A DNA stretch of 40,129 nucleotides. Origin: a virus. Made by a program: the position numbers and the translations under genes. Numbering within the stretch: position 1 is the first letter of the stretch; every line of letters begins with the position of its first letter. This document shows positions 27,764-40,129 of the stretch, in pieces. Location: positions 1 to 40,129 of IMG/VR virus record IMGVR_UViG_3300046538_000190; one strand, given 5' to 3'. The notes under the pieces are model-generated. The model was given only the letters and a program-made list of their open reading frames with translations. It was not told the DNA's origin and made no database searches.

Positions 27764-28476
27764 GCCGCTTTCTCCTGCAGGGTCTTGCCGTTGAAGTTTC
27801 CGCGTAGCGCCTCGACCAGCTCGGCCGCCAGGTCTTGCACGTTGGCGATGGCCTTGTCGATGTTCGACACCAGAGCCGGGTCCAGGTGTTCCAGCGGTTC
27901 ATTGAACCGCATGGAGGACTTGAACGCCTCGCGCTCGTGCAGTTCGGTCCTGAATATCTGTACGCCCACGTCCAGGAAGTCCTGTTCGATGTCTTTGGTG
28001 TTCCTGGTGCGGATGACGGGATTGGTGCGGGTCATGACCAGAGCGTGTGGCAGGACGTAGCCAGGCACATGGCGGCGCATCGAGTTTTCGTGCTGGCGGA
28101 TCATGCGCAGCGTCTTGACGGCCTCTTTGGCGTCGAGTGCGCTGCCCTGGGTTGGGATCAACACGAAGTCCGCGCGGCCGATGGCCATCACCACGATTTT
28201 GGCGGCCGTGCCTTCCAGGTCCACCAGGACGAAGGTGTACTTGCTGGCGGCGTCCTCGATGATGTCGGCGATGGTGTCCTCGTCCACGCCCTCGGAAATG
28301 ACTGTCAGGTCGGCGGGCATGTGCTTGGTCTTGTCCTTGAAGTCCTGGACGGGCTTATTGGGGTCGGCGTCAATGATGGCGGTCGGCGCACTCTTGGCCA
28401 GCGCCAGGGCGAGCTGCAGCGTAGTGGTGGTCTTGCCGGCGCCACCTTTGGATGATGCGGTCGCAATAACGGGCAT
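27760..28476 (-). CDS. parA: ParA partition ATPase
   Basis: A 238-aa ParA/MinD-type ATPase. The deviant Walker A motif KGGAGKT is at residues 10-16, a Walker B-like VLVDLEG follows near 83-89, and the lysine-rich switch IIDADPNKP lies near 34-42. The short length without an N-terminal HTH fits type Ib plasmid ParA. It drives segregation of the episomal prophage. The start carries a strong GGAGATACC leader, shared with the gene at 37796. The GATATC repeat cluster lies directly upstream. Confidence 0.93.
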   Translation of the reverse strand: MPVIATASSKGGAGKTTTTLQLALALAKSAPTAIIDADPNKPVQDFKDKTKHMPADLTVISEGVDEDTIADIIEDAASKYTFVLVDLEGTAAKIVVMAIGRADFVLIPTQGSALDAKEAVKTLRMIRQHENSMRRHVPGYVLPHALVMTRTNPVIRTRNTKDIEQDFLDVGVQIFRTELHEREAFKSSMRFNEPLEHLDPALVSNIDKAIANVQDLAAELVEALRGNFNGKTLQEKAA

Positions 28477-31191: not shown

Positions 31192-31233
31192 ATTATGAGT
31201 TAAATCTATTGGACGTTCAATAGATATCTAGTT
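31192..31233 (-). promoter_or_regulatory. Leftward promoter (PL-like) with overlapping operators
   Basis: Read leftward, -35 TTGAAC (31220-31215), 17-bp spacer, -10 CATAAT (31197-31192). A perfect dyad ATCTATTG-GACGTT-CAATAGAT covers 31204-31225. A 7-2-7 operator CAATAGA-TA-TCTAGTT lies at 31218-31233 over the -35 and matches the operators at 38684/38704 and 33102. It drives the replication/recombination operon 31160-27443 and is probably repressed by the CI-like protein. Confidence 0.75.
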
Positions 31234-31262: not shown

Positions 31263-31994
31263 TTACTCGTGGGATAGCAGGCCGAGCTGGTGGGCGAGGA
31301 ACGCCGTGGGGAATATCTGATCGCGGCCGAACATTTCGGGCAATTTCCGGTAGAGGTAAGCCACCTTGTTCTGGCTGATGCCGAGCAGGTCGGCGATGTC
31401 GGCCGCCGTATGGCCATCCAGAACCAGGCGCAGCACTTTGCGCGCGGTCGGTGTGAGCGCGATGTCCAGGTCCAGGTTGGGCAATGCCTTGCTCAGGATG
31501 ATGGATTCCATGGCGGCGATGGCGAGCCTGGCCAGGTCCAGGCAATCGGGGCCTGGGCTGGGGAGCGCAATGCGGGGAGTGGACAGGGCGACAAAGCCCA
31601 CGGCGCCCAGCTTGCAAGGGATCGCGGCGGACCAGGTGAGAGCTATCCCGTGGGCTTGTGCTTCGCGCTTGAAGTCGGCACGGGACCAGTACATCGGGTC
31701 CTGGTACTCGCTCGGTATGGCGGTGCGCTTGCCTGCAGCGACGTGCGAGCCGTGCCGCTGGCCGGGCGAGATAAAGCGCTCCAGCCAGTCGGGGGTGTAG
31801 TTGTTGAAATAGGAATAGCGTGGCTGTGCGGCCGAGTTCGGGACTTCAAAGCCGATGGCGGCGTGCTCATAACCTAGGTGGCCTTGAGCCAGCAGCGCGA
31901 ATTTGAGGAAAACCTCGGTTTCGTGGCTGACGTTTAGCTCGTTCCGACAGTCCGCCAACCAGCTCGGCGAATAAGTCATGCGAAATTGTCGCAT
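31263..31994 (-). CDS. LuxR-type transcription regulator with N-terminal autoinducer-binding-like domain
   Basis: A 243-aa protein. Residues about 10-170 match the autoinducer-binding domain in outline: NYTPDWLERFI with the conserved Trp, then an IALTWSAAIP and GAVGFVALS region. Residues about 175-235 are a LuxR HTH (LTPTARKVLRLVLDGHTAADIADLLGISQNKVAYLYRKL), ending in FLAHQLGLL. The Tyr of WxxxY is Phe, and the usual Asp-Pro and second Trp of the ligand pocket are not obvious, so the ligand may not be a standard acyl-homoserine lactone. There is no luxI in the window. The gene faces the small ORF at 32422 across a structured region. A second start at 31979 is possible; neither has a good ribosome site. 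Confidence 0.9.
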   Translation of the reverse strand: MRQFRMTYSPSWLADCRNELNVSHETEVFLKFALLAQGHLGYEHAAIGFEVPNSAAQPRYSYFNNYTPDWLERFISPGQRHGSHVAAGKRTAIPSEYQDPMYWSRADFKREAQAHGIALTWSAAIPCKLGAVGFVALSTPRIALPSPGPDCLDLARLAIAAMESIILSKALPNLDLDIALTPTARKVLRLVLDGHTAADIADLLGISQNKVAYLYRKLPEMFGRDQIFPTAFLAHQLGLLSHE

Positions 31995-32421
31995 AAAAAT
32001 CTAGTGGCCGCCTACCACAAGATAGTGAAGCCCGCAACGCGGTTGGCCGTGTTGTTACCAACCCGTAACATAGGCTACATTGGCGGGCTAAATAGTTTGC
32101 CACACTGACAATGATGTTTCTTGTTGTCACTGCTATGGGCTTGCCCATTGCGGACTTCCTTTGACACCCTAAGCGTTGCCATTATTGGCGCTTGCGCTCC
32201 CCTGGGCGGCAGATGTTGGATTGCATCGGGCTAACGACGAAACTTAAAAAATTGCCAACCACGGCAACTGGTTTCGTCGCCCGTGAGGTCGCCGTTGAGG
32301 TGTGAGAATTGGTGAGAATCTAGTTTTTTTCTAAAAAACGATTAGAAAAATCACGTCTTCTTCACGGCCAGCAACTAGATTTGCGGTATATTGAAGGTTA
32401 AAGACACTACGCGGGGGCAGG
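31995..32421. promoter_or_regulatory. Structured control region between luxR-like gene and the small ORF
   Basis: 427 bp without a gene. It contains an operator half-site TCTAGTG (32000-32006) and an 18-bp dyad TGTTAC-CAACCC-GTAACA (32053-32070), a candidate LuxR box. TGACAA (32106-32111) faces TTGTCA (32124-32129). A perfect TTGACA is at 32161. A nested RNA-type hairpin CGACGAAAC/GTTTCGTCG (32235-32243 with 32271-32279) encloses TTGCC/GGCAA. GTGAGAAT is repeated 10 bp apart (32302, 32312). Operator-like half-sites are TCTAGTT (32319), GATTAGA (32340) and AACTAGA (32373). A candidate -10 TATATT (32387-32392) precedes the small ORF. The dyads point to several regulators acting here. Confidence 0.65.
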
Positions 32422-32646
32422 GTGAAGCTGAGGGACGAGTTGGTGAAAATGTTTGATGACATGGACGCGCGCCACCAGGGCGAATTGATTGATATTGCGC
32501 GTATGTACCGGGCTAAGGGGGCGAAGGCGCGGGCCGAAAGTGGCCCGCTCGCTTCATCTATGGCTGTGCCGCGCTTGCGGCTGGTGCGGGGCGGCGGGGC
32601 TACTTCTCAGCCTGTCCGGGAGCCTGTTCACTGCGCAGCCTCTTAG
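32422..32646 (+). CDS. Small protein resembling the C-terminal helices of the adjacent repressor (candidate antirepressor)
   Basis: A 74-aa ORF from GTG 32422 (an internal ATG is at 32449). Residues 10-28 (MFDDMDARHQGELIDIARM) align with residues 103-121 of the CI-like repressor (LFRDTDDDGRDSLLSIAKR): six identities plus several conservative changes without gaps. There is no HTH, and the rest is basic and low-complexity. It is divergent from the LuxR gene, convergent with the repressor gene, and overlaps the repressor 3' end by 47 nt. Operator half-sites and a candidate promoter lie upstream. It may block CI by forming mixed oligomers. Coding status is likely, function is inference. Confidence 0.65.
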   Translation: MKLRDELVKMFDDMDARHQGELIDIARMYRAKGAKARAESGPLASSMAVPRLRLVRGGGATSQPVREPVHCAAS

Positions 32647-33001
32647 CAATGGAGAGCAGCGAGTCGCGGCCGTCGTCGTCGGTGTCGCGGAACAGGGACA
32701 GCATGAGGCTTTCCTCTGCCGTGCAGCGGTGCAGCGTCGTGGCGGCGTGCGTATCCTTTGCGGCGCCACGCTTCGCTGGTTTCTCGTCCGCCATGGGCGA
32801 GCCGTCACCGTTTTCCAGCCAAATCGCGTTGACCTCCAGGGCGGCGGCGATTGAGGCGAGCTTGCGCGCGGTCTTGCTGCGACCTACTTCCAGATTATTA
32901 ATGGTGCCCTGAGAAACGCCGGATTCCTCGGCCAGCTTTTCTTGCGACCATTTTTTTATATGGGTCCGTGCCCATAACAGGCGGTCTTTGAGTTCTTTCA
33001 T
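32600..33001 (-). CDS. XRE-family phage repressor (CI-like)
   Basis: A 133-aa repressor. The HTH occupies about residues 17-60 (WSQEKLAEESGVSQGTINNLEVGRSKTARKLASIAAAL), followed by the WLENGDG element common to Cro/CI-type repressors. The C-terminal 40 residues (TAEESLMLSLFRDTDDDGRDSLLSIAKRLR) are the helical oligomerisation tail. There is no S24/LexA-type peptidase domain, so RecA-driven self-cleavage is unlikely and induction must work by another route, such as an antirepressor. Start at ATG 33001 is preferred over the 33088 start of the longer frame, because the added 29 residues look unlike a repressor N-terminus. Divergent from the Cro-like gene. Confidence 0.88.
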   Translation of the reverse strand: MKELKDRLLWARTHIKKWSQEKLAEESGVSQGTINNLEVGRSKTARKLASIAAALEVNAIWLENGDGSPMADEKPAKRGAAKDTHAATTLHRCTAEESLMLSLFRDTDDDGRDSLLSIAKRLRSEQAPGQAEK

Positions 33002-33066: not shown

Positions 33067-33143
33067 TGGTGCTATTCCGTAGCACCAACTACGGCATAAA
33101 ATATTAGAAACCTATTGACGACGATAACCACAAATCTGATAAT
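33067..33143 (+). promoter_or_regulatory. cI-cro intergenic operators and rightward promoter of the Cro-like gene
   Basis: The promoter has -35 TTGACG (33115-33120), 17-bp spacer and -10 GATAAT (33138-33143). A 7-2-7 operator TATTAGA-AA-CCTATTG (33102-33117) overlaps the -35. A different dyad TGGTGCTA-TTCCG-TAGCACCA lies at 33067-33087. Only six bases separate the -10 from ATG 33150, so the transcript should be leaderless. Confidence 0.75.
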
Positions 33144-33149
33144 TAACGA

Positions 33150-33383
33150 ATGGACACACAGAAAATCGTCGCGGAACTGCTGGAATCGGGCCTTTCTCAG
33201 CAGGCGTTAGGGAAGGCGGCCGGGTGCTCGCAATCGACCATTTCGGCCTTGAAAAGTGGTGAGCGTGGCAAACGCATTTCCAAGGCGCTGGGGGACCGGC
33301 TGCAGGCGATGCACAAGGGGATGACGCGGAAGGCGGGAAGCAAAAAGGCCCGGAATCCGCTGACACAGACCCCGGGCCTCTAG
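33150..33383 (+). CDS. Cro-like HTH protein
   Basis: A 77-aa protein. The HTH is at about residues 12-40 (ESGLSQQALGKAAGCSQSTISALKSGERGKRISKALGDRL). The C-terminus is Lys/Arg/Asn-rich. It is transcribed away from the CI-like gene from a strong promoter with an operator. There is no Shine-Dalgarno in front of ATG 33150 and the predicted transcript start falls on the ATG. A hairpin AGGCCCGG/CCGGGCCT lies across its 3' end (33345-33379), which could attenuate. It is expected to repress cI transcription and switch to lytic growth. Confidence 0.82.
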   Translation: MDTQKIVAELLESGLSQQALGKAAGCSQSTISALKSGERGKRISKALGDRLQAMHKGMTRKAGSKKARNPLTQTPGL

Positions 33384-34033: not shown

Positions 34034-34678
34034 ATGGCGAAGGCAGTTACGGCGTATGTGTCTGGCGATGGCGCGATCCACTTGGACCGAGAGGAAGCAG
34101 AATTTGCGGACTACTCGGCCGAGCTGCGCGAGGACGTGAGCGACTTTATGCGCCAGTCCAACATCGAGGACAGCGACGGCGCCCTGGCGCGCATGCTGTG
34201 CAAGTGGGACCTGTGGAAGCTGGGCGGGTTTGAGGGTTGGCGTGCGAGCCTGTTGCCGCAGATGACGATGCACGCCACCGTCCCTGGTCCTGTAAGCGGA
34301 GGGTGTGAAGTTGCCGCCCCCGCAGGTCCCACAAGCCTACCTACAGGGGCGGCCGCAAAGAACGCGGCCGCTCCCAAGCCGGTGGCGCCGAAGCGCGCCT
34401 ATCGCCGGCACATCGGCGTCATGGGCCTGGACCGCGCCCAGCACGCCGACATGGAGCGCGAGTTCGGCGCTGTGTTCCGCTTGACCATGCTCGACGGCGA
34501 CCAGGCCAAGAAGGGCTGGGAGAAAGTGAAGGGCTGCCACAAGGTCATCGCCCTGGATAAATTCACGCCCAGGGTGGCCATTGCCTCGCTGCGTTCGCGC
34601 GGGGTTGAGCCGCTGGTGTTGCCTGGTGCGGCAAGCCTGCTGCGCGAAACACTCACGTCCATGTACGTGGAAACCTAA
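34034..34678 (+). CDS. Hypothetical phage protein
   Basis: A 214-aa protein. Residues 1-80 are a conserved-looking helical domain (EDSDGALARMLCKWDLWKLGGFEGWRASLLPQM). Residues about 85-120 are an Ala/Pro linker. The C-terminal part (GVMGLDRAQHADMEREFGAVFRLTMLDGDQAKKGWEKV through CHKVIALDKFTPRVAIASLRSRGVEPLVLPG) has an alpha/beta look. The linker suggests two domains. Function is unknown; it lies in the early rightward operon. Confidence 0.65.
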   Translation: MAKAVTAYVSGDGAIHLDREEAEFADYSAELREDVSDFMRQSNIEDSDGALARMLCKWDLWKLGGFEGWRASLLPQMTMHATVPGPVSGGCEVAAPAGPTSLPTGAAAKNAAAPKPVAPKRAYRRHIGVMGLDRAQHADMEREFGAVFRLTMLDGDQAKKGWEKVKGCHKVIALDKFTPRVAIASLRSRGVEPLVLPGAASLLRETLTSMYVET

Positions 34679-36163: not shown

Positions 36164-36463
36164 TCAGTGCTTGATGAGGCCGTGCGCCTCGGCGTACTCG
36201 GCCAGCGCGCGCCCCATGAGAGTCTGGTAGCCCTTGCCGGTGCTGCGGTATGCCTTGAGCACAGTCGTGTCCACGCGCAGGGCGGTGCGGGTCTTGCGCT
36301 CGTCCTCGGCCAGGGCTGGGCGACCGCGCGGCCGGGCTGGTTTCATCTTGGCCAGCATCGCGTCGGTGGCGGGCGGGTTGTCCGGGTCGGTCATGGCGGC
36401 CGCCGTGATGGCCGCGTCTTCCTCGTCGGTCGGCATGTAGATTTCAAGTTTTCGCTTTGACAT
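36164..36463 (-). CDS. brnA: BrnA antitoxin
   Basis: A 99-aa protein of the BrnA family. It starts with a polar segment (MSKRKLEIYMPTDEEDAAITAAAMTDPDNPP). The C-terminal part KTRTALRVDTTVLKAYRSTGKGYQTLMGRALAEYAEAH is the ribbon-helix-helix with the K-GYQT-NALR-like motif typical of BrnA. It neutralises BrnT and represses the operon. A GAGGTG site precedes the start, and the gene overlaps brnT by 20 nt. Confidence 0.9.
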   Translation of the reverse strand: MSKRKLEIYMPTDEEDAAITAAAMTDPDNPPATDAMLAKMKPARPRGRPALAEDERKTRTALRVDTTVLKAYRSTGKGYQTLMGRALAEYAEAHGLIKH

Positions 36464-36716
36464 ATTCGGTCACCTCTCGTTTGTTGGCTTTGCGCAGGCT
36501 GATGATGCGGCGCACGTCGCCACGGTCCGTGTAGATGACCGCGTGCAGGCGGTTGCCCAGTGGGGCTAGCACGTACATGCGGACCTCGTTGTAATCCTCG
36601 CGGTCATCTTCCGTTTCCATCGCATTGCCCCAATCCAGATTGGCCGCCTCGGCCAGCGATACGCCGTGCTTGTTGAGGTTGGCTTTGTCTTTGTTGGGGT
36701 CGAATTCGATTTCCAT
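36444..36716 (-). CDS. brnT: BrnT toxin (ribonuclease)
   Basis: A 90-aa protein with the BrnT start MEIEFDPNKDKANLNKHGVSLAEAANL and the catalytic-like region with RMYVLAPLGNRLHAVIYTDRGDVRRIISLRKANKREVTEYVK. BrnT is a RelE-like ribosome-independent RNase. The toxin-antitoxin pair kills or stalls cells that lose the element, so it supports stable plasmid-like maintenance. The start at 36716 lies about six bases from the -10, which implies a leaderless transcript. Confidence 0.9.
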   Translation of the reverse strand: MEIEFDPNKDKANLNKHGVSLAEAANLDWGNAMETEDDREDYNEVRMYVLAPLGNRLHAVIYTDRGDVRRIISLRKANKREVTEYVKAKT

Positions 36717-36722
36717 GTGATT

Positions 36723-36770
36723 ATTGTGCCCACAAATAATATGCGCGTCAAGTATATTTTGTGACCACAA
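36723..36770 (-). promoter_or_regulatory. brnTA promoter with two BrnA-type operators
   Basis: Read leftward, -35 TTGACG (36751-36746), 17-bp spacer, -10 CACAAT (36728-36723). Two dyads TTGTG-CC-CACAA (36724-36735) and TTGTG-AC-CACAA (36759-36770) flank it and are likely bound by BrnA to repress the operon. Confidence 0.75.
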
Positions 36771-36823
36771 TAAAGCGGTGGGAAAACCCACCACAAGACC
36801 GGCGCGGCGGCGGGCGCCATGAT

Positions 36824-38683: not shown

Positions 38684-38724
38684 AACTAGAAACCTATTTA
38701 CACAACTAGAAATCTAGTTATAAA
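38684..38724 (+). promoter_or_regulatory. Rightward late promoter with two tandem CI-type operators
   Basis: -35 TTTACA (38697-38702), 16-bp spacer, -10 TATAAA (38719-38724). Operators AACTAGA-AA-CCTATTT (38684-38699) and the perfect palindrome AACTAGA-AA-TCTAGTT (38704-38719) are 20 bp apart; the second fills the spacer and the first overlaps the -35. It drives 38876 onward through the junction into the structural genes. Confidence 0.8.
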
Positions 38725-39120: not shown

Positions 39121-39345
39121 ATGGACATCAAGAGCCTGCGATTTGCGGCAAAGGCGACCAGAAAGGAGTGCAGTGGCTGCCTGTTTGAAAACGAGCGGTC
39201 CAGCGTCTGCAAGGATGCGGCCGGCGAGGCGAAAGCGCGCGGCCTGCCTGATTGCGACGACGCCGACCCGGACGGCCGCAGCTACATCTACGTGGAAGAC
39301 CCGACCGACCCGCGCCAGATTCCCCTGCTGGAGCCGCCGACATGA
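39121..39345 (+). CDS. Small Cys-containing protein (zinc-binding candidate)
   Basis: A 74-aa protein. MDIKSLRFAAKATRKECSGCLFENERSSVCKDAAGEAKARGLPDCDDADPDGRSYIYVEDP contains four cysteines (CxxC, then two single Cys) that could bind zinc. The stop overlaps the next start (ATGA). It lies in the nuclease/methyltransferase gene set. Family not recognised. Confidence 0.65.
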   Translation: MDIKSLRFAAKATRKECSGCLFENERSSVCKDAAGEAKARGLPDCDDADPDGRSYIYVEDPTDPRQIPLLEPPT

Positions 39346-39761
39346 TGCGCCGCACGCCGATGCGCCGGTCCGGCTTCAAGCAGCGCGCCGGGCCGTCGCC
39401 GTGTAAGCCGGCCAGTCCAAAGGCGATTGTGAAGAAGTCGCCCGGCATGAGGACCCGCCAGCGCACGGTGGCGGCCGAGGAAAAGGCGTTGTGGGACCGG
39501 CTGGCGCGCGAAGTTGGCTGTATCGCCTGCCGCCAGGATGGAATTTTTAATGACCATGTGAGCATCCACCACGTTGACGGCCGCACCAAGCCTGGCTGTC
39601 ATCGCAAGGTGCTGCCGCTGTGTGGTCCGCATCACCAGGACGACGGAAGCGGCGCCATTGCCGTGCATCCCTGGAAGGCGCGCTTTGAGGCGCGTTACGG
39701 CACGCAGGACGAATTGATGCTGATGTGTGCTGCCTTGCTTGGATTGGAGTCTTTGGGTTGA
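39342..39761 (+). CDS. Ref-like RecA-dependent nuclease
   Basis: A 139-aa protein. Residues about 55-120 (REVGCIACRQDG, then SIHHVDGRTKPGCHRKVLPLCGPHHQDDG, then AVHPWKARFEARYGTQDELM) match the P1 Ref (recombination enhancement) HNH-type nuclease family, which cuts DNA in RecA-bound displacement loops. The N-terminal 45 residues are Arg/Lys-rich. Overlaps the MTase start by one base (TGATG). It probably acts with the SSB/PD-(D/E)XK module in recombination; the link is inferred. Confidence 0.8.
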   Translation: MMRRTPMRRSGFKQRAGPSPCKPASPKAIVKKSPGMRTRQRTVAAEEKALWDRLAREVGCIACRQDGIFNDHVSIHHVDGRTKPGCHRKVLPLCGPHHQDDGSGAIAVHPWKARFEARYGTQDELMLMCAALLGLESLG

Positions 39762-40129
39762 TGGAGAAAGTAGAAATTGGCGGGGCGACTTTGTACCGCG
39801 CCGACTGTCAGGAAGCCTTGCCGCACATTGGTCTGGTCGACGCGTTGATTACCGACCCGCCTTACGGGCTGGCCGGGGCCAACGTCGCTATTACCTGGGG
39901 CGAGACGAAGGATTGGGCCGATGCGGCCAAAGATTGGGATTCGACGCCGCCGCAAGACATCGTGGCGGCCTTGATTGCCAGGTATCCGAAGTGCCTGATT
40001 TGGGGCGGCAACTATTTTGCACTGCCCCCATCGCGCTGCTGGCTTATATGGGACAAGCCCGACAGAGGGTTGTCGATGGCTGATGCCGAGCTGGCGTGGA
40101 CCAACCTGGACAAGAACGTTCGCAGTTTC
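39761..40129 (+). CDS. DNA methyltransferase, N-terminal part (joined to 1-478)
   Basis: The N-terminal 123 codons of the methyltransferase whose C-terminus is at the left end. MEKVEIGGATLYRADCQEAL leads to the catalytic TDPPYG at residues 31-36. Codon phase at base 40003 equals that at base 1, so the joined 720-nt gene has no break. The final 127 nt (40003-40129) duplicate 1-127. Start overlaps the Ref-like nuclease stop. Confidence 0.94.
   Translation, partial: MEKVEIGGATLYRADCQEALPHIGLVDALITDPPYGLAGANVAITWGETKDWADAAKDWDSTPPQDIVAALIARYPKCLIWGGNYFALPPSRCWLIWDKPDRGLSMADAELAWTNLDKNVRSF
40003..40129. repeat. Terminal direct repeat, right copy
   Basis: Exact copy of 1-127. When the contig is circularised this copy should be removed, leaving about 40,002 bp. 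Confidence 0.95.

Follow-up and report, generated by a model that had tools for sequence, protein, structure and literature searches.

Does a temperate phage carry a tiny copy of the dimer-forming tail of its own repressor, and could this copy release the phage from dormancy? The question is raised by a small open reading frame (32422-32646, + strand) that starts with GTG, encodes 74 aa and is proposed to be an antirepressor gene. Based on the comparisons described below the phage probably does carry such a copy, which possibly acts to release dormancy. The window (the whole stretch of DNA analysed, an IMG/VR record of 40,129 bp) looks like a complete phage with a direct terminal repeat of 127 bp (1-127 and 40003-40129). 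Given this repeat, and since no tyrosine integrase was found in the record, the phage may persist in plasmid form or integrate in some other way. Among the scanned species genomes the closest relative of its terminase is found in a Delftia genome (72%). Elsewhere the record encodes a papain-family cysteine protease (PF00112) upstream of the terminase (1123-1863, + strand), a BrnT/BrnA type II toxin-antitoxin pair (36164-36463 and 36444-36791, - strand; PF04365, PF14384) and a member of a RecA-dependent nuclease family (39252-39761, + strand; PF16786).

The small reading frame and its neighbouring repressor

The small ORF shares its 3' part with a convergent gene's 3' end. This gene encodes a CI-like XRE repressor of 133 aa (32600-33001, - strand, read from 33001 to 32600) with an HTH_3 domain and a predicted C-terminal helical hairpin. 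Next to it lies the gene for a Cro-like HTH protein (77 aa, 33150-33383, + strand), recognised by both Pfam and PHROGs. The CI-like protein is DicA-like in size and matches HTH families only in Pfam, with no peptidase domain. It thereby resembles GfoR and DicA, short repressors without a cleavage domain that are inactivated by small antirepressors and not by RecA (PMC3121763, PMC10448788); the likeness extends to the Gifsy GfoR/GfoA and Qin DicA/Rem pairs, where a small protein inactivates a repressor of this short, non-cleaved class.

The small ORF has alternative starts at 32440 (TTG) and 32449 (ATG). Its codon usage over residues 1-39 scores 0.41 per codon, which is above all 67 of 67 spurious ORFs and resembles the real genes of the window; for residues 40-74 the codon score is like that of non-coding DNA. 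Since gene-like codons are restricted to residues 1-39, the gene looks real across the hairpin discussed below, and the C-terminal extension (residues 40-74) may be neutral. We infer that the ORF is translated. The initial annotation described the product as a small protein without an HTH, and indeed neither Pfam nor PHROGs gives an HTH match. No Pfam family is found at E <= 1 (SinI family included), no homologue is present in viral_contigs and none is credible in phages (best E 7), while the 399 genomes of the Delftia family yield weak matches only, mostly within long reading frames. Without homologues there is no support from conservation, which we count against the tail-mimic explanation.

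It might be argued that the ORF is a decaying tail remnant or a chance frame without function, of which any transcript would matter only as antisense to cI. The missing homologues, the non-coding appearance of the C-terminal part, the convergent overlap with cI and the presence of a terminator-like cI structure beyond the ORF are consistent with such a fragment. Nonetheless we consider it unlikely, as residues 1-39 score above all spurious ORFs, the hydrophobic register shared with CI is preserved and operator half-sites are located upstream (see below).

The tail match between the small protein and CI

An ungapped alignment with six identities was claimed initially between residues 10-28 of the small protein and residues 103-121 of the CI-like repressor, and we find it as described. 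Along the same diagonal the gap-free match reaches further, covering residues 7-39 of the small protein (LVKMFDDMDARHQGELIDIARMYRAKGAKARAE; codons at 32440-32538, + strand) and 100-132 of CI (MLSLFRDTDDDGRDSLLSIAKRLRSEQAPGQAE; 32606-32704, - strand), with 10 out of 33 residues identical and a BLOSUM62 score of 46. Because the match stops one residue before the C-terminus of CI, the copied unit is the repressor's whole end, which is presumably its dimerisation domain. When the whole small ORF is shuffled 20,000 times, a score of 46 is reached 9 times, and for residues 1-39 it is reached 3 times in 20,000; smaller shuffle runs gave 0.001, 0.0007 and 0.0014. In the fetched loci, one of 1,298 real ORF frames reaches the score for residues 1-39, and none of these frames matches the CI tail as well as the small protein does. 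Also, when compared with the CI tail, the small ORF ranks top of the 437 open frames of the window. All eight positions of the CI segment that hold I, L, M, F, V, W or Y are matched by a residue of this set in the small protein (hypergeometric P = 3e-6, a value that is somewhat flattering because the alignment was picked by score first). The match goes unreported by BLASTP at its default settings, which include compositional adjustment; with the word size set to 2 and the adjustment switched off, it appears at E 0.007 (10-protein database).

Structure predictions point in a similar direction. AlphaFold2, run on the single sequence, places helices at residues 2-12 and 16-39 of the small protein (pLDDT 81-91 per ten-residue block) and tail helices at residues 95-103 and 109-125 of CI. 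Predicted separately, the helices of both proteins are in register at the alignment offset of 93. As with SinI, a two-helix hairpin that is similar to the C-terminal hairpin of the repressor and lacks an HTH is thus predicted, with the CI tail modelled at low confidence, which again counts against the tail-mimic explanation. A fold search with the model of the small protein was uninformative, with no more than seven aligned chains and a best Z of 2.5.

The pattern was initially noted to be common in XRE-family tails. This holds in so far as other proteins share it, but they do so less well: among approximately 37 XRE proteins from the fetched loci the phage's own CI is best at 46, and the second and third reach 36 and 32. 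The neighbour ranking first weakens the reading as a general helix motif. As a control, each fetched locus with a short XRE protein was scanned for short ORFs in the vicinity that look like the tail of that protein. The pair of the window comes out on top (46, 0 of 300 shuffles). The pairs that follow, at 43 and 40, involve proline- and serine/arginine-rich sequences for which the shuffles lend weaker support (0.02 and 0.05); low shuffle values are also seen for a few pairs with lower scores. Overall, the XRE-wide pattern together with the top score of the neighbour suggests that family resemblance contributes, yet the neighbour match stands out.

Concerning the origin of the small ORF, the two tails agree at only 45 of 99 DNA positions, which rules against a recent inverted duplication of the cI tail. 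Upstream of the small ORF no HTH match is found in the same frame, in which a stop codon lies a short way ahead of the start. Judging from these sequences, descent from a truncated repressor is still conceivable.

The divergent LuxR-type gene and the intergenic region

The initial annotation made no mention of the gene divergent from the small ORF, which encodes a LuxR-type regulator of 243 aa (31263-31994, - strand). The protein contains an autoinducer-binding domain (Autoind_bind, PF03472; 27.4 bits, cut-off 23), and RhlR, QscR and SdiA align across most of its length. For the C-terminal HTH, GerE scores 21.3 bits (cut-off 23.5) and Sigma70_r4_2 25.9, just above its cut-off. Of the six canonical pocket residues in TraR numbering (W57, Y61, D70, P71, W85 and G113), only W57 is kept; further on, E178 is lost and L182 and G188 are retained. 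In the other 24 aligned proteins, including LuxR of Aeromonas phage ARM81ld (6/6), the pocket residues are present except for two cases of G113A. With five out of six changed, an ordinary acyl-homoserine lactone is doubtful as the ligand. Close relatives were found neither in viral_contigs nor in 30 related phage records (a search without positive control), and elsewhere the protein matches ordinary LuxR proteins at 23-31%.

This gene changes how the locus looks: as far as can be read from gene order, the layout is that of TF-smORF lysis modules, in which a small ORF is switched on by the transcription factor encoded divergently from it and in turn inactivates cI (PMC10432266). In the modules of phage 72, phage 63, Apop and ARM81ld (PMC10432266) the transcription factor gene is divergent from a homologue-less small ORF, as are the genes at 31263-31994 (-) and 32422-32646 (+), and in two of them the factor is of LuxR type as well. 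The small ORF, being shorter than 100 aa and without homologues or recognised domains, is also of the kind found in these modules. Differences are that here the luxR operon contains no XRE gene, the module adjoins cI and the LuxR pocket is degenerate. The VqmA-Qtip system of VP882, as described in PMC11323111 and PMC10432266, is comparable in having a small protein of similar size (79 aa) that is counter-oriented to the sensor gene and acts on cI; the sensor family differs, and the likeness is taken from these descriptions.

The small proteins of phage TF-smORF modules have little to no mutual homology (PMC11323111), so the way in which they disable cI is hard to guess from sequence. Tail mimicry is absent in E. 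coli Rem versus DicA and in the presumed smORF of ARM81ld versus its repressor (p35, 27958-28119, taken as the smORF by position); the Gifsy-1 stretch does not contain the immunity region and was left out of the comparators. This brings up the possibility that the small protein is a TF-smORF antirepressor which hits CI via another surface, as Qtip or Rem may do, and that the tail likeness merely reflects ancestry or a helix pattern. The gene layout would fit, Rem and the presumed ARM81ld smORF manage without mimicry, and the general pattern is common to XRE tails. We regard this as rather improbable, however, since it leaves unexplained why the neighbour ranks best, why the hydrophobic register is exact and why the match runs end-to-end up to one residue before the C-terminus of CI.

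A separate observation concerns contig IMGVR_UViG_2876723161_000001 (L131, 2965-3860; L133, 1420-1800), where a LuxR gene keeps the DP motif. It also has a 53-aa ORF convergent with luxR (L131) and an XRE gene whose product is a relative of the ARM81ld XRE protein. This ORF shows a weak likeness to the XRE tail of that phage (P 0.08), which is no more than suggestive and is given as a lead only.

The region between luxR and the small ORF (31995-32421, 49% G+C) is enriched in perfect inverted repeats, with three having 9-bp arms (P 0.007). One inverted repeat, CGACGAAAC...GTTTCGTCG enclosing TTGCCAACCACGGCAA (32235-32279), encloses a hairpin. On the - strand this hairpin looks like a terminator, and its RNA forms a good fold (z -4.2); it may be the end of the cI mRNA, a regulator site, or both. 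A nested hairpin with a U run (32230-32285, - strand) lies beyond the small ORF and could end the cI mRNA, in which case the cI transcript could be antisense to the whole small ORF. We rejected TTGCCAACCACGGCAA as a lux box, given that it doubles as a good - strand terminator hairpin and that a second exact TTGCC-N6-GGCAA sits in an open reading frame at 34619. No canonical lux box (CTG-N10-CAG) is present in the intergenic region. Similarly, no LexA box (CTGT-N8-ACAG, up to one mismatch) is found at 31995-32421, based on a consensus that may not be the host's own, and SOS control of the small ORF was discarded on this ground. This differs from Gifsy, where GfoA is LexA-controlled and encoded outside the immunity region (PMC3121763).

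A putative 16-bp operator, AACTAGAAATCTAGTT, recurs with variations at the presumed PL (31218-31233, - strand, overlapping TTGAAC-17-CATAAT), at the presumed PR (33102-33117, + strand, overlapping a TTGACG-17-GATAAT promoter) and twice in full at 38684-38719, including AACTAGAAATCTAGTT itself at 38704. When each of these is sought with a model built from the remaining ones, it comes back among the five best sites of the window. In the 40 kb the heptamer AACTAGA is seen six times, against 0.67 expected. Two of these half-sites, in inverted orientation, are located in the promoter region of the small ORF (32319-32325, - strand; 32373-32379, + strand), the latter just upstream of a -10-like TATATT (32387-32392). 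Scored as full operators they are weak and no better than chance there (P 0.11). Apart from the -10-like element the promoter region yields no sigma-70-type call, which would suit an activator-dependent promoter. A strong palindrome, TGGTGCTATTCCGTAGCACCA (33068-33089), is found between cI and cro; it differs from the AACTAGA operator and may be a site for a second regulator.

The arrangement of genes and sites also bears on the option that the small protein stabilises or modifies CI as a co-repressor or higher-order oligomer partner, leaving it active. Tail hairpins are known to form dimers and tetramers as well (SinR, PMC3163267), and small phage proteins can be co-repressors (Lxc, MOR; PMC11323111). 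Still, this role is very unlikely, as the small ORF is divergent from an activator-type gene, convergent with cI and outside the cI operon, and the half-sites upstream match the operator of the presumed lytic promoters. Finally, similar tails exist elsewhere (for instance at loci L114 and L051), but that the true partner would be another hairpin-tailed protein, such as an XRE repressor of the host or of a co-resident prophage, is hardly credible with the phage's own CI clearly best (46 versus 36).

Proposed mechanism and its meaning

The best explanation found is that the small protein mimics the tail of CI and mixes with it in a dominant-negative manner, and it is partly supported. It draws on the full tail alignment, the hydrophobic register, the predicted helices, the limits of the coding signal and the precedent of SinI and SinR (PMC3163267). 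In addition, we count in its favour that CI ranks best among approximately 37 XRE proteins and that the window pair tops the control loci, as well as the shortness of CI and its lack of a peptidase domain, the divergent LuxR-type gene and the excess of AACTAGA. Counted against it are the missing canonical lux box and LexA box, the weakness of the half-sites as full operators, the non-coding look of residues 40-74 and the lack of mimicry in Rem and the presumed ARM81ld smORF.

SinR is inactivated when its hairpin and that of SinI combine into a mixed four-helix bundle; the hydrophobic core residues of the hairpins are conserved between both proteins (PMC3163267). Here, too, a small two-helix hook without HTH is similar to the hook at the C-terminus of a lambda-type HTH repressor encoded next to it, and hydrophobic core positions are common to the small protein and the repressor. 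In contrast to SinI, the small protein has no Pfam match, is phage-borne and is encoded convergently with the repressor gene; its neighbour is of LuxR type, whereas the SinI/SinR system is under Spo0A control. A heterodimer is proposed by analogy.

The product of the small ORF would accordingly be an HTH-less copy of the C-terminal two-helix dimerisation hairpin of CI. It would join the CI tail in a mixed four-helix bundle and split the CI dimer, and we infer that the loss of dimers lowers DNA binding and thus operator occupancy, as SinI does to SinR. Most likely the LuxR-type factor switches the small ORF on upon some cue. The half-sites in its promoter region suggest that CI binds there and represses the small ORF too. 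A repressor that represses its own antirepressor would constitute a double-negative loop, locking in induction once begun. For this scheme, a tail mimic without HTH that pairs with the CI hairpin, breaks the dimer and is switched on by the LuxR-type factor, we see a roughly even chance. More tentative, and rather doubtful at present, is the extended version, where a LuxR sensor with a remodelled pocket responds to a cue other than an ordinary acyl-homoserine lactone and controls a SinI-like mimic of the CI hairpin, yielding a cue-gated, non-SOS prophage trigger. If true, the effector mechanism of such a trigger would be readable from sequence.

In this locus the sequence suggests a mechanism, tail-hairpin mimicry as in SinI/SinR, and comes with residue-level predictions. 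The degenerate pocket of the LuxR-type protein raises the question of which signal is read. Since neither Rem nor the presumed ARM81ld smORF copies the tail of its repressor, small proteins of this kind do not as a rule use the mechanism; if it holds, it would represent a distinct solution within the class, in contrast to ARM81ld, where the presumed smORF does not resemble the CI tail. If the mechanism is confirmed, a developmental trick of Bacillus would be extended to a phage lysis switch, and it would provide a search rule: small ORFs that copy the tail of a nearby repressor.
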